The notes under the pieces: generated by a model
The model's database searches: none
What the model saw: only the letters and a program-made list of their open reading frames with translations
What the model was told of the DNA's origin: nothing
Virus record (IMG/VR): IMGVR_UViG_3300042154_001728
Span: 1-35,459 of that record
From: a virus
Reading direction: 5' to 3' (one strand)
DNA: 35,459 bases
Made by a program: the position numbers and the translations under genes
Shown here: in pieces, positions 70-35,459 of the stretch
Layout: each line of letters opens with the position of its first letter
How positions within the stretch are numbered: the first letter of the stretch is position 1

Positions 70-129
70 AATAGCTAGTTTAAAGGTATTTAGCCTTTTT
101 TTAGAGTGAAATTGACTTTGTTTTTCATC

Positions 130-330
130 TGTAGCTTATATCTAAAATCCTTTAGCGGACTAAACCGTCGGATACTGCCGATATTATTTTAGGTTTTCAC
201 TACTAATTATTTTTGTATACCTGAAGCATATATTGGTCTTTACTCCTGGTAGTCGTTATGCTTACTCATTCTAAAACTCACTCATGGAATTTAACCAAGC
301 TATGGCATAGAGCCTGAGTATACGACATTA
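130..330. other. Non-coding gap with clustered inverted repeats, possible structured RNA
   Basis: No convincing gene lies between 70 and 420. Two groups of perfect inverted repeats are visible. Group one: CTAAAAT 142-148 pairs with ATTTTAG 186-192 and encloses TTTAG-CGGA-CTAAA (151-164) and TCGG/CCGA (168-171/178-181). Group two: the self-complementary GTATAC occurs at 215-220 and 318-323, and encloses AAGCATA 224-230 pairing with TATGCTT 257-263, plus a GCTAT/ATAG-GC hairpin at 299-313. Both groups could fold as three-way junctions. I found no tRNA T-loop signature and no known riboswitch or ribozyme core. The strand is unknown. Confidence 0.35.
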
Positions 331-408
331 GTTTTACTAATATACAACAAATATTTGAAACAGAAAAATTTTTTTTAATAAATATTTTTTTATGTCATTT
401 TTTTGTCT

Positions 409-10431: not shown

Positions 10432-12036
10432 ATGCCAGTGAGTAACCAAGATATATTAAAAACAATACTCTTACAAGAGTTAGATAGGATGGAACCTGAA
10501 CAATCAACGTTTGAGGATGATCCTATGCAGTTTATATTAAAAAAGTATGTAGGACTTAAGAATACTCTTGAGTATCTTATGACTCCTTCATTTGAAGAAT
10601 ATATTACTGGTATATATGTAGTTGCTCCTAAGCCAACAACATTTAAAATTGTTTTACATAACGGACAATTCTTTTTCTTGCAGTTCATGGGTAAAGCCTA
10701 CGAAGCAACTGTAGAAGGAAAGAAATACTATTTAATGTCTATTGGTGAGAAAGAAAGATGTATGGTTGCAATATCAAGACTTCTTAGGTTTGGTAATCCT
10801 TTAAAGACTAAAGGACCGGATGGCGCAGAGCAAGGTACTAGAGATTCAGAAGGACCTGCAGAAGAAGCAGGACCAACACCACCAGCAGAAACTAGTGCAG
10901 AAGAAGGCGGAGGAGAAGAATTAACGGAGTCTAAAATATTAGAAAGTATTCTTAGAAAAGAAGCATATACTGATTTTCCTAAATCAGAAAAAGAAATTTC
11001 TAATCCTAGTTTAAAAACTTTATATAAAGCATTAAGATCAGTGTCTGATATTGAAGATCCTATATCTTTAGATCCTTCAAAACCTAGCTTTGTAAATATT
11101 ACAAGGAAATTTCAAACAGACAAAAAAGCTTTAGACGCAATAAAAAAAGTTACAGGTCAAGATATAAGTAAGACAGGTAAAATAAAATGGAACGGATTAA
11201 ATATTAAATTTGGTGAAGGTTCTAGAGGCGGTAGAGGAGTTAAATCTAAAGGACTTGGATTTGAAGGCACGTTAGCTGGAGATCTTGAAAAATTATCTAA
11301 AGAGGGATTAACAAAACAAAACTTAGAGTCATTTAATCATCCGGTTCTTATTACTAAAATGGCTAATGAGTTAGGTCTTAAAAAAGGAAACTTTACAGTA
11401 AGTTTAGATGGAAGTGCAAATATGCCTAGACCTTTAGCATTTAGCTCATCAGGACCAACAGTATCTTTTTCAGGCGAAAGTATAGCAGCAACTTTAACTG
11501 ATATAACAATAGTAAAAGGAACTGAAACATATTATATATCAGCAAAATTTGGTGGTACGCTAACATTCTTTAATTCAGGAGTAGCAAAGACTTTACCAGC
11601 AAATGAAATTAAATCTGGGCAGATAAAAAATCCTAATGGAATAGCATTACTTAAAACATTAGGAATAGACAATAAATCTTTCTGTAATGTATTTAATTAT
11701 TATGAAAAGGGTAAAGCTGGTGAGTTTAAGCCAAAACAAATATCAGCAGATATTGCTCAATTACAAAATCTAGTTAGCTCAGGAATTGGATCTGGATATT
11801 ACTATGCACAAGCAGGTAAAGGAGAAGATCAATTTTTTAAAATAGATAGTAAATACAATAAAAAAGCATCTACTATTACATCAGAACCTCAAGTATACTA
11901 TGGAGGAATAGATGGTAAAGGTAAAAGAGTAGATGTTGTATTTGAATCTGATAAGTACTACTTTAAAGTTAATATTAGAAATAAGCAAGGCGGTCTTTAC
12001 CCTACTCACATTATGTGTGACTATAAAGCAAAATAA
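10432..12036 (+). CDS. Large two-domain phage protein with an internal targeting-like segment
   Basis: A 534-residue protein. The N-terminus MPVSNQDILKTILLQELDRM is a helix with L-Q-E. Residues about 30-125 form one domain. Residues about 126-165 are a Gly/Pro/Glu-rich linker. Immediately after it, LTESKILESILRKEA (164-178) looks like a second targeting or cleavage segment. A large domain (about 180-534) follows, containing GLGFEGTLAGDLEKL and TYYISAKFGGTLTFFNSGV. I do not know its activity; no catalytic motif is certain. The arrangement could be a precursor that is cut in two during head maturation. Confidence 0.6.
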   Translation: MPVSNQDILKTILLQELDRMEPEQSTFEDDPMQFILKKYVGLKNTLEYLMTPSFEEYITGIYVVAPKPTTFKIVLHNGQFFFLQFMGKAYEATVEGKKYYLMSIGEKERCMVAISRLLRFGNPLKTKGPDGAEQGTRDSEGPAEEAGPTPPAETSAEEGGGEELTESKILESILRKEAYTDFPKSEKEISNPSLKTLYKALRSVSDIEDPISLDPSKPSFVNITRKFQTDKKALDAIKKVTGQDISKTGKIKWNGLNIKFGEGSRGGRGVKSKGLGFEGTLAGDLEKLSKEGLTKQNLESFNHPVLITKMANELGLKKGNFTVSLDGSANMPRPLAFSSSGPTVSFSGESIAATLTDITIVKGTETYYISAKFGGTLTFFNSGVAKTLPANEIKSGQIKNPNGIALLKTLGIDNKSFCNVFNYYEKGKAGEFKPKQISADIAQLQNLVSSGIGSGYYYAQAGKGEDQFFKIDSKYNKKASTITSEPQVYYGGIDGKGKRVDVVFESDKYYFKVNIRNKQGGLYPTHIMCDYKAK

Positions 12037-12041
12037 ATTTT

Positions 12042-12069
12042 TTTGTTTCAATTATTTTTTGTATATTAG
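12042..12069 (+). promoter_or_regulatory. Possible host-type promoter before a small gene
   Basis: TTTG at 12042-12045 and TATATTAG at 12062-12069, 16 bases apart, resemble the Bacteroidota -33 TTTG and -7 TAnnTTTG boxes loosely, with a shorter spacer than usual. This 48-base gap is one of three longer gaps lacking the ATATTTAT motif. Confidence 0.25.
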
Positions 12070-12084
12070 CCATAAATTAATAAC

Positions 12085-12330
12085 ATGGCAAAAAAAGATA
12101 CAATCTATAGAATAATAAAGACTATAGAAGGAACTACAATCCACATTTACGAAGACGAAAAAGGTGTTACAAAACCCCATTGTGCCATAGGACCTGCTAT
12201 CCTTTATGGAAAAGGACATAATAAGCAGGACGAATACTATTTGTTTGGAGTTAAATACGATTATGACAGATGGCTAGAATTATCTAGACCTTTAAGGAAA
12301 GCTACTACTAAAGAAGATTTTGTTGATTAA
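12085..12330 (+). CDS. Small hypothetical protein
   Basis: An 81-residue protein with no recognised family. It reads as a compact beta-rich domain: repeated aromatic/hydrophobic alternation (IYRIIKTIEGTTIHIYEDEK) and HCAIGPAILYGKG, then DEYYLFGVKYDYDRWLELSR. It is the only gene in this stretch with gaps on both sides and a possible host-type promoter, so it may be expressed at a different time. It has no targeting-like N-terminus. Confidence 0.6.
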   Translation: MAKKDTIYRIIKTIEGTTIHIYEDEKGVTKPHCAIGPAILYGKGHNKQDEYYLFGVKYDYDRWLELSRPLRKATTKEDFVD

Positions 12331-21609: not shown

Positions 21610-21618
21610 AAAAATATT

Positions 21619-21732
21619 TCTAAGTTTACATATTTTACTACAGACTTAGATATTTATGGTATATGCGCCATGATCTAATATGGCACTACTATAAAAAAAT
21701 CCTTATATTGCTTTCATAATCTAATAAGCAAT
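21619..21732 (+). promoter_or_regulatory. Structured leader of the scaffold-capsid unit
   Basis: The 144-base gap before the scaffold gene, the longest between genes in the head block, holds three perfect inverted repeats. They are TCTAAGT 21619-21625 with ACTTAGA 21644-21650, GCCAT 21667-21671 with ATGGC 21680-21684, and ATTGCTT 21707-21713 with AAGCAAT 21726-21732. The second and third lie between the ATATTTAT motif and the ATG and could fold in the mRNA leader of the most highly expressed phage genes. Confidence 0.4.
21650..21657 (+). promoter_or_regulatory. ATATTTAT intergenic motif, copy 7
   Basis: ATATTTAT lies 96 bases before the scaffold ATG at 21754, the largest distance of the nine copies. 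It abuts the right arm of an inverted repeat. Confidence 0.4.
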
Positions 21733-21753
21733 CCCCGACACAATCTTATAAAC

Positions 21754-28423: not shown

Positions 28424-31400
28424 ATGTCAAACCAGTTTCTTAAGCTTCGCAGATCCGCAGTACCGGGTAGAGTACCCGACACAGCGTCTTTACAATTTGG
28501 TGAGATAGCACTTAATACCTATGATGGTTTAGCATTTATTAAAAAATCTGGTTCTAATGGCGAAGAAATAGTTACAATTGGCTCTACTTCTAATTCATTT
28601 TCTGGCTCGTTTACTGGTTCTTTATTTGGAACTGCAAGTTGGGCAGTAAATGCACTTACCGCATCTAACACTCCTAATGCATTTGTAACAGCTATACAAG
28701 TATTCCCGGATACTATTCAATTAATTAAAGGTAATGGAGATACAGAAAACTATAATATTAATGATGTAGTACAGGCTCAAAATGCAACCTTAGCTTCAAC
28801 AGCATCATCAGCAGACGATTTTTTAGTTAGGGGTACATTAACAGCTCAAACTATTGTAGCTCAAGTTATAACATCGTCAATTCAATATGTAACAGGATCA
28901 ACTATATTTGGCTCTGAGTTATCTAATACACACGAGTTTACAGGTTCAGTAAATATTACTGGATCATTAACTATAAACGGCTCTTCGTTTACTGCTGCTA
29001 CTAGTGGAACTAGTGGCACTGCAGGTTCATCAGGTAGTTCAGGTACTAGTGGTTCATCAGGATCATCTGGTACAAGTGGATCATCTGGCAGTTCTGGAAG
29101 TACTGGAACATCAGGATCTTCAGGTTCATCTGGCAGTTCTGGAGAATCAGGCACAAGTGGTAGCGCTGGTTCAAGTGGAACATCAGGCTCTAGCGGTAGT
29201 TCAGGCACGTCGGGTTCTACAGGAACATCTGGTAGTGCAGGAACTTCTGGTACGTCTGGATCTAGTGGCACAAGTGGAGAAAGTGGTACAAGCGGATCTA
29301 GTGGTACTTCTGGTTCATCAGGATCAACAGGTACATCAGGATCTAGTGGTACTTCTGGTTCATCAGGCTCTACAGGAACATCAGGCTCAAGCGGATCTTC
29401 TGGTACTAGTGGAAGTTCGGGTAGCTCAGGTTCATCAGGTAGTTCAGGTACTAGTGGTTCATCAGGATCAACAGGTACATCAGGATCTAGTGGTACTTCT
29501 GGTTCATCAGGCTCTACAGGAACATCAGGATCTTCAGGTAGTTCAGGCACTTCTGGTTCTACAGGAACATCAGGATCTTCAGGTAGTGCAGGTACTAGTG
29601 GTAGCTCTGGTTCTTCAGGAAGTAGTGGCAGTTCTGGAACATCAGGAACTGGATTTAATACTATTAGCAATGCAGGTCAAGGCAGAATAATATTGTCTGA
29701 TGGTACAACAAATGCAGCAACTGCATCGTCTAATTTAACTTATACAAATAATACTTTATCTATAACCGGCTCTCTTATTCAAGGATTAGAGGGAAATATA
29801 GCAACAGGAGAACAATCACATGCTGAAGGAAGTATTACTAAAGCAATAGGAAACTACTCACATGCCGAAGGCGATTTTACACAAGCAATAGGAGATTACT
29901 CACATGCTGAAGGTCAAGAAACAATAGCATCCGGTGCATATTCACATGCCGAAGGTTATCAAACAATAGCATTAGCTAATCACCAACACGTACAGGGCCA
30001 ATGGAATGCTACATCATCCGTACCCGCAGCTTTTATTGTAGGTAATGGAACTGATGACAGCAATAGAAGTAATCTTATATACGCTGCAGGAAATGAAGTG
30101 CAGATATCAGGATCTCTACAAGTATCAGGAGGTATTACAGGAAGTTTAAATGGCACTGCTAGTTGGGCTAGAAATTCCTTAACAGCATCTTCAGCTGATA
30201 ATTTTACAGTAAGAGGCACTTTAACTGCACAAACAATTGTAGTTCAAACGATTACATCTTCTGTTGACTTTGTAACAGGATCTACTAGATTTGGATCGCA
30301 ACTATCTAATACACATCAGTTTACTGGTAGTGTTTCTGTAACTGGTTCTTTAGCTGTTAAAGACCTTACACTAAATAACTTATCTCGTTTTGTAGTTATA
30401 GACGAAACTACAGGACAATTATATTATAATACAGCTGGGGCTTCTGGCTCATCAGGTACAAGCGGTACATCAGGTTCAAGTGGAACATCTGGTAGCTCAG
30501 GTACATCTGGCCAAAATGGTTCTTCTGGTACTTCTGGCACTAGCGGAACATCTGGATCTACGGGTACTAGTGGTAGCGCAGGATCTTCAGGTTCAACAGG
30601 TACTTCAGGATCTAGTGGTAGCACTGGAACATCTGGCTCTTCTGGTACATCTGGCTCAACAGGTACTTCTGGTTCATCTGGAAGTTCTGGTACTAGTGGA
30701 GTTAATGGTACTAGTGGATCTGCAGGCACGTCTGGTTCTAGTGGAACATCAGGTAATACAGGAACTTCTGGATCTTCTGGTTCAACTGGAACTTCTGGCT
30801 CTAGTGGTAGTACTGGTACATCAGGAAGTTCTGGCTCAACAGGAACATCTGGTTCGTCAGGTTCAACTGGAACTTCTGGCTCTAGTGGTACAGCAGGATC
30901 TTCTGGTTCATCAGGTAGTTCAGGGTCTACAGGAACTAGCGGATCTAGTGGATCTTCTGGAACATCTGGAAGCTCAGGCACTTCTGGAGTAAACGGAACT
31001 AGTGGATCTTCTGGAACATCTGGTTCTTCTGGATCTACAGGTACAAGTGGATCTGCAGGCACGTCTGGTTCTAGCGGAACTAGTGGTTCAAGTGGTAGTA
31101 CTGGTACATCTGGTAGTGCAGGTACATCTGGATCATCGGGTTCGAGTGGTAGTTCTGGCACCTCAGGCACAGGATTCAATACTATTAATAATCCTGGAGC
31201 TAATAGAATAATATTATCTGATGGCACAACTAATGCTGCAACTGCCTCATCTAATTTATCTTTTTCTAATAACGTACTACAAGTAACTGGTAGCATATCA
31301 AGTAACGGAACAATAACTGCTCAGACTCTTATTGTTCAAAATATTACTGCTTCTCAAGAATATATTACTGGTTCAACAATATTTGGAAGTTTACTAACTA

Positions 31401-34400
31401 ATACGCATCAATTTACTGGTTCAGTAAACATTACTGGATCATTAACTATAAATGGAACTTCATTTACTACAGCTACTAGTGGTACATCAGGTACTTCTGG
31501 ATCTAGTGGAACTTCTGGATCTTCTGGAACCTCAGGAACTAGTGGATCTGCAGGTACTAGTGGTTCTACTGGAACATCTGGATCTTCAGGTACGTCTGGT
31601 ATAAATGGAACTTCTGGATCTTCTGGAACTAGTGGTTCATCTGGTGTAAGTGGAACTTCTGGAAGTTCAGGTAGTGCTGGTACCTCTGGTTCTACAGGCA
31701 CGAGTGGAAGTTCAGGCACTTCTGGTTCTAGCGGATCTTCTGGATCTACAGGAACTAGTGGATCAACTGGAACATCTGGCTCTAGTGGTTCTAGCGGATC
31801 TTCTGGTTCAACTGGAACTTCTGGTTCATCAGGTAGCTCTGGCACTTCTGGAACTGGATTTAATACAATCACTAACCCAGCAGACAATAGAGTAATTACA
31901 TCATTAGGTACTACTAACACAGCAAACGCAGAAGCTAATTTAATATTTGATGGATCTATACTTACTATTACTGGTAGTGCTAGTCCAAAATTAATTTTAG
32001 GTACTGTTGGTGGAGATGAAGGTGGAGAACTTTTATTAGGAAAAGCAGAAACAAATACAACACTAACTGGTAGTGGTGTAACAATAGATGTTTTTCAAAA
32101 TAGACTTAGATTTTTTGAACAAGGTGGAAATGCTCGTGGATATTTTATAGACATAACTACTGGTGCAGCAGGCGTTGGAACTAACTTAGTAGCTACAGGA
32201 ACATCTGGTACCTCAGGTAATACTGGTTCTTCAGGAACTAGTGGAGCAAATGGAACTAGTGGATCTTCTGGATCTAGTGGTACAAGTGGAGTAAGTGGTA
32301 CTAGCGGTTCAAGTGGAACGTCTGGAACTTCCGGATCGTCTGGTACTAGTGGTAGCTCTGGTACTAGTGGAGCAAATGGAACTAGTGGTTCATCAGGTAG
32401 TTCAGGTACTTCTGGTTCTACTGGAACATCTGGCTCTAGCGGAACTAGTGGTTCTACAGGTACAAGTGGATCTACTGGTACATCTGGTAGCTCAGGTACA
32501 TCAGGATCTTCTGGCTCATCTGGAACCTCAGGTTCAAGTGGTACATCTGGATCATCTGGATCAAGTGGAACATCTGGCTCTAGCGGCACGTCTGGTACAG
32601 GATTTAATACTATTAATAATGCAGCTCAAGGTAGAATAATATTATCTGATGGTACTACAAATGCTGCAACTGCATCAACAAATTTATCTTTCTTAAATAA
32701 TACTCTTAATGTAACTGGAAGTATTGTAAGTTCTGGTACTATTACAGCTCAAACACTTGTAGTTCAGACAATTACATCATCTGTTGATTTTGTAACTGGA
32801 TCTACTAGATTCGGTACTCAACTTTCTAATACGCATCAATTTACAGGATCTGTAAGCATTACCGGATCTTTAAGTATAAATGGAACATCATTTACTGCCG
32901 CTACATCTGGCACATCAGGAACTTCTGGTGCTAATGGCACATCGGGTTCAAGCGGTACTAGTGGAACATCTGGTACTTCTGGTTCAACAGGAACATCAGG
33001 TAGTTCAGGCACATCTGGTTCTTCAGGCACAAGCGGTACTAGTGGCAGTTCAGGTACTTCTGGTACTTCAGGCAGTTCAGGTACATCTGGTTCAACTGGT
33101 TCAGCAGGTTCTTCAGGTACTTCAGGTTCATCTGGAACTAGTGGTAGTTCTGGTACATCTGGCATAAATGGTACTTCTGGCTCGTCTGGAACCTCAGGAT
33201 CTAGCGGTTCTGCAGGATCTAGTGGTACAAGTGGAGCAAATGGATCTAGCGGTTCAAGTGGTACTAGCGGATCATCTGGTAGTTCTGGTACATCAGGTAG
33301 CTCTGGCACATCTGGAGCAAATGGATCATCTGGCACATCTGGTTCTAGTGGAACATCAGGCAGTTCAGGTTCAACGGGTACATCAGGATCATCTGGCACA
33401 AGCGGTTCTTCTGGCACATCTGGAAGCTCAGGTACTAGTGGTACATCAGGTAGTTCTGGTTCTAGTGGAACATCTGGTACAGGATTTAATACAATAAATA
33501 ATGCTGCAGTAGGTAGAGTTTTAGTATCAGACGGTACTACAAATACTGCAACTGCTTCAGCGATACTTACAGTCTCTGGTAATACTACTACAGTATCTGG
33601 AAGTTTAACTGTATTACAAAACTTAACTGTATTAGGATCTGCTTCTATTACTTATATTAGTCAATCTACACTTAATGTTGGTACAAATTTAATTACAGTA
33701 AATACTAATAGTCCATCAGTTAGATTTGGAGGGCTTGCCGTAATTGATTCAGGATCTAGTCCACAAGTATCAGGATCTTTTTTATATGATTCACTTCACG
33801 ATGAATGGCTCTCTGTTCATAAAGCAGATAGTGCTGCAGGAGTAACATCATCTCACTTCCTTCAAGGCCCAGAAACCTATAATAATTTAGGAAATGAAAT
33901 TTATATAGCTGCTAATGTTATCATAAAAGGTACTGGTAATGAACATGTAGCTCCATCAAATATTACAGATAATGGTTCTGTAGTTAGTATAAATAGTAGA
34001 ACATCAATAACAGGATCTTTATTTGTTTCGTCATCAGTTACTGCAAGTATATTTGCAAATCCTGGAGGAAATATTCTTTTAATACCAAGTGGTGGAGCAG
34101 GTATAAATACTGCATCCGTAGTACTTTATGGAGGTATAGATTGGGTAAGAGAACCTAATGCTACTCAAACAGAAATTGGAGATCTAGTATCCTTTGCTAG
34201 TACAATGGGTATTATTGATGGCGGTGCTCTAACTACAGCTAGTGGATTAACTATCCAAGTAGCAGAATCTGTAGGATATGTAATGACTACAGGAAACTAT
34301 CCTAATCATAATTTAAGAAAAATTAATACTAGAGGCTCTACAGATGTTTCTAGACAAATAACGCTTCCAGCAAATGCAGATAGATACGTTTATTATAATA

Positions 34401-35459
34401 GCTCAGGAAATTTAACGTCTTCAGCAACAGAGCCAAACTCTAGGTTTAATGTGCCTATAGGAAGGGTAATGACAGATAATTCATCTGTTGTTTATATAGA
34501 TAGAACTCCTTTAGATGCACATCACTATTCAAACTATGTAGATCGATTATTTAGAGACGCGTTAGGACCTATATTCCAATCAGGAGGAATAACTACTCAA
34601 GGAATAGTATCTAGAAGTCTTGATGTAACATCTGCTATATTTTTCTTTTCTGAACATAGGGTTACTACAACTGGAGCAACTCCTATAACTTTTGATGCAT
34701 TATATAGAAGTGGCTCATCAGGAACTGGTATAGGAGGTTCTGCTTTTACTAGAGTAGCAAGTCAAACAACAGCAAGCAATACTTTATATGATAGTGCTAG
34801 CTTTGGCACACTACAATCAATTCCATCTGGAAAGTATGTGAAGCATTCATTATATATGATTGGTCTTCCTACTACACAGTATTTCCTTGTCTATGGTCAA
34901 GAACTATATGATAATGTTGAAGCGGCTGAAGCAGGTAATTTACCAACTCCTCCAAGCTTTGTAACTGAACAATTTGCTCTATTTGCTTCTATAGTTGTAA
35001 CTCCAGATAGTTCTAGTATTCAATCTATAATTGATGAAAGACCTAGACTTGGTTTTGCATCTCCATCAAGAACAGGAGTTGTTACTTTACATGGCAACTT
35101 ATTAGGATTAGAAGCAGATGATCACCAACAGTATTTGTTAGTTGATGGTACTAGAGCAATGCAAGGAAATTTATCTCTTGGCGGATATGATATTACTAAT
35201 GTAGATAATATTTCTGCAACTTCTATAACAAGCTCATTGTTTGGAACAGCTTCATGGGCACAAAATTCATTAACAGCATCATCAGCAGATAATTTTACTG
35301 TTAGAGGTACTTTAACTGCTCAAACTATAGTAGCACAAACAATTACTTCATCTACTGATTTTGTAACTGGATCTACTAAGTTTGGTACTTTATTAAATAA
35401 CACACATCAATTTACCGGCTCAGTAAGTATTACTGGATCATTAACTATAAATGGTTCAT
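28424..35459 (+). CDS. Giant collagen-like tail-fibre protein, 3' end beyond the window
   Basis: The frame from ATG 28424 stays open to the edge, giving at least 2,345 residues. The start MSNQFLKLRRSAVPGRVPDT and SLQFGEIALNTYDGLAFIKK is a phage-fibre N-terminus that I recall from T4-like phages of AT-rich marine hosts, and probably docks on the baseplate. Five Gly-X-Y arrays follow at residues 195-410, 672-917, 1020-1145, 1259-1393 and 1496-1687. Each is followed by GTGFNTI. SHAEG repeats (about 462-527) recall the YadA head. Linker modules with TGSLTINGS recur. Near residue 2227, DDHQQYLLVDGTRAM is a common phage tail motif. It is probably trimeric and surface-exposed for host contact. No chaperone or S74 peptidase end is visible yet. 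Confidence 0.9.
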   Translation, partial: MSNQFLKLRRSAVPGRVPDTASLQFGEIALNTYDGLAFIKKSGSNGEEIVTIGSTSNSFSGSFTGSLFGTASWAVNALTASNTPNAFVTAIQVFPDTIQLIKGNGDTENYNINDVVQAQNATLASTASSADDFLVRGTLTAQTIVAQVITSSIQYVTGSTIFGSELSNTHEFTGSVNITGSLTINGSSFTAATSGTSGTAGSSGSSGTSGSSGSSGTSGSSGSSGSTGTSGSSGSSGSSGESGTSGSAGSSGTSGSSGSSGTSGSTGTSGSAGTSGTSGSSGTSGESGTSGSSGTSGSSGSTGTSGSSGTSGSSGSTGTSGSSGSSGTSGSSGSSGSSGSSGTSGSSGSTGTSGSSGTSGSSGSTGTSGSSGSSGTSGSTGTSGSSGSAGTSGSSGSSGSSGSSGTSGTGFNTISNAGQGRIILSDGTTNAATASSNLTYTNNTLSITGSLIQGLEGNIATGEQSHAEGSITKAIGNYSHAEGDFTQAIGDYSHAEGQETIASGAYSHAEGYQTIALANHQHVQGQWNATSSVPAAFIVGNGTDDSNRSNLIYAAGNEVQISGSLQVSGGITGSLNGTASWARNSLTASSADNFTVRGTLTAQTIVVQTITSSVDFVTGSTRFGSQLSNTHQFTGSVSVTGSLAVKDLTLNNLSRFVVIDETTGQLYYNTAGASGSSGTSGTSGSSGTSGSSGTSGQNGSSGTSGTSGTSGSTGTSGSAGSSGSTGTSGSSGSTGTSGSSGTSGSTGTSGSSGSSGTSGVNGTSGSAGTSGSSGTSGNTGTSGSSGSTGTSGSSGSTGTSGSSGSTGTSGSSGSTGTSGSSGTAGSSGSSGSSGSTGTSGSSGSSGTSGSSGTSGVNGTSGSSGTSGSSGSTGTSGSAGTSGSSGTSGSSGSTGTSGSAGTSGSSGSSGSSGTSGTGFNTINNPGANRIILSDGTTNAATASSNLSFSNNVLQVTGSISSNGTITAQTLIVQNITASQEYITGSTIFGSLLTNTHQFTGSVNITGSLTINGTSFTTATSGTSGTSGSSGTSGSSGTSGTSGSAGTSGSTGTSGSSGTSGINGTSGSSGTSGSSGVSGTSGSSGSAGTSGSTGTSGSSGTSGSSGSSGSTGTSGSTGTSGSSGSSGSSGSTGTSGSSGSSGTSGTGFNTITNPADNRVITSLGTTNTANAEANLIFDGSILTITGSASPKLILGTVGGDEGGELLLGKAETNTTLTGSGVTIDVFQNRLRFFEQGGNARGYFIDITTGAAGVGTNLVATGTSGTSGNTGSSGTSGANGTSGSSGSSGTSGVSGTSGSSGTSGTSGSSGTSGSSGTSGANGTSGSSGSSGTSGSTGTSGSSGTSGSTGTSGSTGTSGSSGTSGSSGSSGTSGSSGTSGSSGSSGTSGSSGTSGTGFNTINNAAQGRIILSDGTTNAATASTNLSFLNNTLNVTGSIVSSGTITAQTLVVQTITSSVDFVTGSTRFGTQLSNTHQFTGSVSITGSLSINGTSFTAATSGTSGTSGANGTSGSSGTSGTSGTSGSTGTSGSSGTSGSSGTSGTSGSSGTSGTSGSSGTSGSTGSAGSSGTSGSSGTSGSSGTSGINGTSGSSGTSGSSGSAGSSGTSGANGSSGSSGTSGSSGSSGTSGSSGTSGANGSSGTSGSSGTSGSSGSTGTSGSSGTSGSSGTSGSSGTSGTSGSSGSSGTSGTGFNTINNAAVGRVLVSDGTTNTATASAILTVSGNTTTVSGSLTVLQNLTVLGSASITYISQSTLNVGTNLITVNTNSPSVRFGGLAVIDSGSSPQVSGSFLYDSLHDEWLSVHKADSAAGVTSSHFLQGPETYNNLGNEIYIAANVIIKGTGNEHVAPSNITDNGSVVSINSRTSITGSLFVSSSVTASIFANPGGNILLIPSGGAGINTASVVLYGGIDWVREPNATQTEIGDLVSFASTMGIIDGGALTTASGLTIQVAESVGYVMTTGNYPNHNLRKINTRGSTDVSRQITLPANADRYVYYNSSGNLTSSATEPNSRFNVPIGRVMTDNSSVVYIDRTPLDAHHYSNYVDRLFRDALGPIFQSGGITTQGIVSRSLDVTSAIFFFSEHRVTTTGATPITFDALYRSGSSGTGIGGSAFTRVASQTTASNTLYDSASFGTLQSIPSGKYVKHSLYMIGLPTTQYFLVYGQELYDNVEAAEAGNLPTPPSFVTEQFALFASIVVTPDSSSIQSIIDERPRLGFASPSRTGVVTLHGNLLGLEADDHQQYLLVDGTRAMQGNLSLGGYDITNVDNISATSITSSLFGTASWAQNSLTASSADNFTVRGTLTAQTIVAQTITSSTDFVTGSTKFGTLLNNTHQFTGSVSITGSLTINGS
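29006..29653 (+). repeat. Gly-X-Y array 1 (72 triplets)
   Basis: I translated all 216 codons: every third residue is Gly, X is Thr/Ser/Glu and Y is Ser/Thr/Ala, with no proline. A 75-base perfect direct repeat lies within (29311-29385 and 29455-29529). Confidence 0.95.
29311..29529 (+). repeat. 75-base perfect direct repeat inside array 1
   Basis: Bases 29311-29385 and 29455-29529 are identical and begin 144 bases apart, an exact multiple of nine (16 triplets). Elsewhere in the arrays synonymous codons are shuffled, so this copy is likely recent. Confidence 0.9.
29807..30004 (+). repeat. SHAEG repeats resembling the YadA head
   Basis: Four repeats of [S]HAEG spaced by 14 residues (SHAEGSITKAIGNY, SHAEGDFTQAIGDY, SHAEGQETIASGAY, SHAEGYQTIALANH), then a decayed copy HVQG. 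This is the left-handed beta-roll head repeat of trimeric autotransporter adhesins, also used in phage fibres. Confidence 0.85.
30437..31174 (+). repeat. Gly-X-Y array 2 (82 triplets)
   Basis: Longest of the five arrays. The glycine register is kept from GAS to the final GTG. Rare triplets GQN, GVN and GNT break the Ser/Thr pattern. Confidence 0.9.
31481..31858 (+). repeat. Gly-X-Y array 3 (42 triplets)
   Basis: Same composition, with GIN and GVS variants. It ends in the GTGFNTI cap. Confidence 0.9.
32198..32602 (+). repeat. Gly-X-Y array 4 (45 triplets)
   Basis: Contains GNT, GAN and GVS variants. Unlike the others it is preceded by a different module (segment LILGTVGGDEGGELLLGKAE), not by the TAQT...TGSLTINGS linker. 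Confidence 0.9.
32909..33484 (+). repeat. Gly-X-Y array 5 (64 triplets)
   Basis: Contains GAN and GIN variants and ends in GTGFNTI. The sequence after it switches to a long non-repetitive region. Confidence 0.9.

Follow-up and report, generated by a model that had tools for sequence, protein, structure and literature searches.

The gap upstream of the leftward operon

The window, that is, the whole stretch of 35,459 nucleotides analysed here, is a full IMG/VR virus record (IMGVR_UViG_3300042154_001728), and its genes for a Gp23 capsid protein and a T4-type portal and terminase mark it as a fragment of a T4-like phage. The closest named relative by primase is the Flavobacterium phage immuto (41.8% identity), which suggests a Bacteroidota host. 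Elsewhere in the window, a P-loop kinase gene matching Pfam Zeta_toxin and CPT (2156-2941, plus) adjoins a cytidylyltransferase-like gene, a 144-base gap amid late genes (21610-21753) holds short inverted repeats visible by eye, and an open frame of at least 2345 amino acids (28424-35458) continues past the window end.

At the left end, a DNA primase gene and a small acidic ORF diverge from a stretch that is gene-free, as the sequence-only reading had stated. The features of this region, including the predicted helices of a minus-strand RNA in its 5' to 3' order, are as follows; the evidence named is described in the next section.

421-1350, plus: divergent DNA primase gene (phrog_47, E 1e-43)
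339-344, minus: -10-like box TATATT of a putative leftward promoter, with A/T tracts and TTTCAA upstream (355-375)
81-332, minus: structured RNA of about 250 nt; 5' end placed from the promoter, 3' end at the distal PKb strand
322-326/252-256, minus: helix P1 (pair counts, swap test)
315-319/264-268, minus: P1b (pair counts, swap test)
308-311/270-273, minus: P2 (pair counts, 37 rows)
303-304/279-280, minus: P2b (pair counts, 37 rows)
295-299/283-287, minus: T-loop-like hairpin (pair counts, 37 rows)
248-251/218-221 and 243-246/223-226, minus: P3 hairpin; contains an A.A mismatch and one conserved G.U (100% of cells paired, swap test)
236-238, minus: PKa loop strand GAC, in the P3 loop (88% of cells paired, swap test)
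200-203/131-134, minus: P4 (pairing in 69% of cells; 4/4 pairs with two-sided changes)
186-192/142-148, minus: P5 (pair counts, swap test)
178-181/168-171, minus: P6 (pair counts), in a three-way junction with P5 and P7
165-167/156-158, minus: P7 (pair counts), in the same junction
149-154, minus: PKb proximal strand, between P7 and P5 (pair counts, swap test)
114-116, minus: PKa 3' strand GUC (pair counts, swap test)
94-98/82-86, minus: local hairpin (82-98) sharing the distal PKb strand
81-86, minus: PKb distal strand, 11 nt 5' of the AUG
1-69, minus: small acidic ORF with its AUG at 67-69, truncated by the window edge; complete relatives exist

P1, P1b, P2 and P2b form a stack that leads up to a hairpin, and the loop of this hairpin reads U-(G/U)-N-R-A in the 37-row alignment, which we take to be a T-loop-like motif. 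A GGUAUA-AAAUA linker lies between P3 and P4/P5, and the covarying pseudoknot PKb ties the segment preceding the AUG to the core. The PKb helix occurs in variants that include UAAAGG/CCUUUA, UAGGG/CCCUA, CAGGG/CCCUG, UAGAG/CUCUA, UAAGGG/CCCUUA and UAUAG/CUAUA. The local hairpin was 5 bp or longer in 38/55 rows, shorter in the other 17 and absent from several clades; its mean length was 4.91 bp vs 3.59 bp in shuffled sequences, a modest excess, with p ≤ 0.05 in 20/55 rows. RNA length across the homologues ranged from 224 to 260 nt.

Covariation and coding strand

A primase scan yielded 63 loci, and the conserved element was found in the gap of 51 of them. The other 12 comprised one locus cut 57 bases upstream (L022), one with differing upstream sequence (L011) and ten with primases of 31-39% identity. 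Four pattern scans of IMG/VR added more distant members, giving 63 distinct full-length RNAs in phage contigs after duplicate removal from 130 locus entries, many of which repeated the same contig; L210 and L213 joined the set later as two more members. Primase identity to L001, a near-twin of the window, extended down to 53%, and RNA identity to the window down to 52%. The 63 RNAs were reduced to 55 rows at 97% identity and to 37 rows at 90%, and pairs were counted in an unsupervised MAFFT alignment of the 37 rows. Because T-loop and P3 anchors belonged to the search patterns, the invariance of these two elements is partly built in.

Standard pairs occupied 88.8% of the cells of the 55 proposed pairs, falling to 30-45% when the partner was slid by 1-3 columns. 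Two-sided changes occurred in 35/55 pairs, the covariation score was 0.344 vs at most 0.108 when slid, and none of 500 shuffles reached any of five measures. Under a tree-based null of our own design, five of 30,876 column pairs passed E ≤ 0.1, all of them base pairs of the proposed structure (one each in P2b, P3 and P5, two in PKb); the PKb register was set there by complementarity, and this test leans towards PKb since its strands were chosen by best helix. In a swap test, windows were placed by conserved anchors alone, blind to the helices, and each row's own partner strand was compared with the partners of distant rows. The own strand did better than the median in 55/55 rows for P1, 53/55 for P1b, 49/55 for P3, 55/55 for P5, 52/55 for PKb and 40/55 for PKa, a pseudoknot of moderate support. 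P2 (22/55), P4 (30/55) and P6 (13/55) gained no support, either because their strands hardly vary or because the windows suit them poorly; P4 is thus a weakly supported helix proposed from its pair counts.

The minus strand was favoured by RNAalifold (-88.8 vs -67.0 kcal/mol for the plus strand with 46 rows; -69.7 vs -59.6 with 63 rows), and its pair cells held 139 G.U vs 49 A.C. The P3 pair 245/224 is G.U on the minus strand in 35/37 rows, where the plus strand would give A.C. A plus-strand RNA was ruled out by the folding energy and the G.U/A.C balance, despite a TTGAC..TTATAT-like stretch on that strand at 111-143. By this comparative evidence, the gap is shown to encode a conserved structured RNA on the minus strand.

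The sequence-only reading had pointed to nested inverted repeats at this place, and these are present as letters (CTAAAAT at 142-148 with ATTTTAG at 186-192; GTATAC at 215-220 and again at 318-323). It read them as consistent with two three-way junctions, of which one was borne out. The outer pairing of the first (142-148/186-192, our P5) was paired in 87% of cells with two-sided changes in 7/7 pairs among the 37 homologues, and since it encloses the adjacent hairpins 168-171/178-181 and 156-158/165-167, the segment 142-192 is a true three-way junction. The second (215-323) was not supported: its outer pairing was formed in 153/251 cells by the minus-strand rule and 145/251 by the plus-strand rule, one arm being near-invariant while the opposite arm drifts. 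The arm at 218-221 pairs instead with 248-251 in P3 in 100% of cells, and the bases of the claimed junction fall in P1, the T-loop-like hairpin and P3. The minus strand, both pseudoknots and the full extent of about 81-332, longer on the left, had been missed. Both conservation and covariation of pairings, whose absence from relatives would have told against a structured element, were found in them, and this part of the proposal therefore stands.

The covariance model R1 matched the window at 82-333 (minus) with 242.8 bits, the window itself being one of the 37 model rows. The RNA occurred once per record in 12/12 IMG/VR records searched whole, with no convincing copy elsewhere; one additional weak match in each of seven records (E 0.1-1) was taken as noise. 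Rfam 15 gave no match in the window at gathering scores, in agreement with the earlier remark that no known RNA class could be recognised, and a lax search (E ≤ 10) of the window gap and the homologue L046 returned chance matches only (E 0.8-7). A group I intron, RNase P and a cobalamin riboswitch were considered and dropped, Rfam giving them no support, and ARAGORN found no tRNA or tmRNA gene in the window.

As to a cellular origin, 84,980 species genomes were scanned with a pattern; none of the 17 stretches recovered showed the flanking RNA, and several were one identical coding stretch, presumably of an Mrp-type ATPase. A longer pattern had no match in 295 genomes, all from one class (that of genome G013), and R1 found nothing in four bacterial genomes, a result that shows little because only 150 candidates were scored in each. 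Among named phages, four queries gave no meaningful DNA match, and R1 gave nothing convincing in immuto, LR756508 and Mel-JY01 (best E 0.95). A different leader-like stretch directly 5' of an ATG (L169:4600-5000) matched the short P6-P7 pattern in another context; it has its own GCGGGAG/CTCCCGC stem and no Rfam match, and may be a chance match or another RNA. No paper describing the RNA was found in searches of an open-access library.

Promoter, operon and phages lacking the RNA

A TATATT-like box (TANWTT) stands 8-17 nt before the first P1 base in 51/55 rows, most commonly at 12-13 nt, and one of the four rows without it (L070) is cut by the contig end. At the other end, the nearest ATG follows PKb by 8-31 nt in 54/55 rows and by 69 nt in L051; when the sequences of L153, L161 and L183 were read, the true ORF start lay about 31-36 nt behind PKb. 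This layout strongly suggests that the RNA starts at the promoter and runs on into the small ORF. The stretch 12030-12069 (plus), before the gene at 12085 and ahead of the terminase gene, is a 90% copy of the RNA promoter region (337-376, minus) and a candidate for the same promoter class. The motif (A/G)ATATTTAT stands just 5' of many genes (2140, 4988, 8082, 12333, 16899, 18777, 21649 and 28362, plus; 378-386, minus), with 13 matches vs 3.35 expected and none of 100 shuffles as high; it could represent a late promoter or a start-site motif in this phage, and its copy at 378-386 lies upstream of the RNA on the same strand.

Synteny was examined in 28 loci. The divergent primase was present in 27; L167, the exception, begins too close. 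Clustering recovered the small acidic protein in 24 loci, and a glutaredoxin-like protein was present in 26, an HD-like protein in 25 and the protein c4 in 20, the last count being affected by several loci that are cut before c4. A PHROGs search connects the HD-like protein with metal-dependent phosphohydrolases, whereas the labels "glutaredoxin-like" and "membrane-like" for operon proteins are our reading of the letters. The Foldseek matches of c4 (model pLDDT 72, pTM 0.42) were mostly sigma factors, none with E < 0.001, and a PDB sequence search did not find a sigma identity; for both reasons, "sigma-like" is a weak assignment for c4.

A search with c4 gave 80 loci, and R1 matched 13 of the 79 scored. 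In 11 loci, the same divergent primase and operon flank a gap of only 138-182 bases that lacks the RNA and retains promoter-like sequence and a short leader. The short leaders of all 11 (L217, L244, L203 and eight others) contain a G-rich stretch such as AGGGGGAAAA, which in L217 and L244 stands shortly after a TATATTAG box. When 39 primase rows were placed in a tree, those without the RNA formed two supported groups, and the presence label needed 3 changes vs 11.7 in shuffles; gain and loss of the RNA look alike in this tree, as its backbone is unresolved and the outgroups sit on long branches. The RNA thus occupies precisely the leader and may be missing from it, and since two clades keep the operon without it, operon expression does not require it.

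A probable leader RNA and its alternatives

Precedents exist for each element of this RNA, and none of them is the present RNA. The manA and wcaG motifs are structured RNAs found by comparative genomics in T4-like cyanobacterial phages and are discussed as regulating the genes next to them (Weinberg et al. 2010, PMC2864571). They resemble our RNA in discovery, in phage type and in the proposed regulation of neighbours, but they differ in fold and sequence, Rfam having given only chance matches to other families here, and accompany varied metabolic genes rather than one fixed operon site. The T4/RB69 gene 32 operator, bound by gp32, consists of a pseudoknot of about 28 nt and then a less structured stretch of more than 40 nt that contains UUAAA repeats; the pseudoknot is missing in RB49 (PMC535899). 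It too is a pseudoknotted leader before a start codon in a T4-like phage and is missing in some relatives, whereas our RNA spans about 250 nt and has PKb near the AUG; a short pseudoknot plus a spacer of more than 40 nt does not describe RNAs of 224-260 nt with an ATG within 8-31 nt in 54/55 rows. The T4-like methylophage Melnitz has a predicted glutamine riboswitch that is common but not universal among relatives (PMC9004378). It is likewise an RNA of a T4-like phage that some relatives lack, but it belongs to a known class with a known ligand, and Rfam gave no glutamine riboswitch match here. GOLLD, ROOL and OLE are large, highly conserved, ornate RNAs, described as forming homo-oligomeric complexes (PMC12286853); they share size, conservation and structure with our RNA, which differs from these homo-oligomers in having no Rfam match.

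Our preferred reading, with a probability of about 0.6, is that the RNA represents a new family of 5' leaders acting in cis on translation of the leftward operon that includes the sigma-like protein. Of the three roles offered by the sequence-only reading (an ncRNA, a replication origin and a regulatory leader), the leader is favoured by the site of the conserved, covarying RNA found here, which directly precedes a conserved ORF on the same strand. The RNA would be transcribed from the conserved promoter at 339-361 jointly with the small ORF and would control translation of that ORF and, through coupling or message stability, that of the downstream genes (glutaredoxin-like, HD hydrolase-like, small membrane-like and sigma-like). 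The core might fold and bind a partner (a metabolite, a phage protein or a host factor), whereupon 149-154 would capture 81-86; without the partner, the latter strand would be free or, in the window's clade, held in the local hairpin 82-98. The two states may differ in ribosome access near the AUG, with PKb as the moving part. An exchange between hairpin and PKb would not be general, given the several clades that lack the hairpin.

A more specific version, which we consider tentative and rather unlikely, is a riboswitch-like class, so far confined to uncultured T4-like phages, whose double-pseudoknot core would sense a metabolite or protein of the infected cell and time expression of the operon, the phage's own late sigma factor included. 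Promoter, RNA and AUG follow one another on one strand, as expected for a co-transcribed leader, and the pair counts in 37 rows reveal a conserved, covarying, aptamer-like fold. Equally doubtful is a stand-alone phage ncRNA that acts in trans by binding RNA polymerase, the ribosome or a phage protein and acquires its 3' end by processing, its gene just happening to precede the operon. As leaders go, the fold is large and its conservation tight, the T-loop, P3 and the junction being exact in sequence; it begins a few bases behind a strong-looking promoter and can be missing while the operon persists. Yet the close spacing of PKb and the ATG leaves no room for a terminator, and none of the whole-searched records has a copy at another place. 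With one RNA per record and fixed synteny, cis and trans action are inseparable in these data.

A role in replication, as an origin transcript or as primer RNA next to the primase gene, would suit a single-copy element lying between divergent replication genes and another operon, but this is improbable given a pseudoknot and G.U-tolerant covariation that reach down to the start codon, and sister phages that share the gap and the primase lack the RNA. Those sisters also manage without the RNA as a ribosome-recruiting substitute for a Shine-Dalgarno sequence, a still less probable role, although the RNA most often stops about 10 nt short of the AUG. Inverted repeats arising by chance in A+T-rich DNA would explain why single-sequence folding of 130-330 and of both its halves was unremarkable (energy z-scores of +0.3 to -1.3, at chance level), but they do not account for covariation in 37 diverse homologues or for the swap-test results of P1 and P5, and we give this explanation almost no weight. 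Chance is refuted for P1, P3, P5 and PKb; individual weak helices, P4 among them, may be due to it.

An RNA of 250 nt with two pseudoknots, strong covariation and no Rfam match constitutes a new RNA family. Its covariation model makes structure probing and ligand searches directly testable, and the sister phages that miss just the RNA provide a natural, ready-made comparison. Because the operon behind it encodes a sigma-like protein, the RNA could be a control point for the turn to late genes in these phages.
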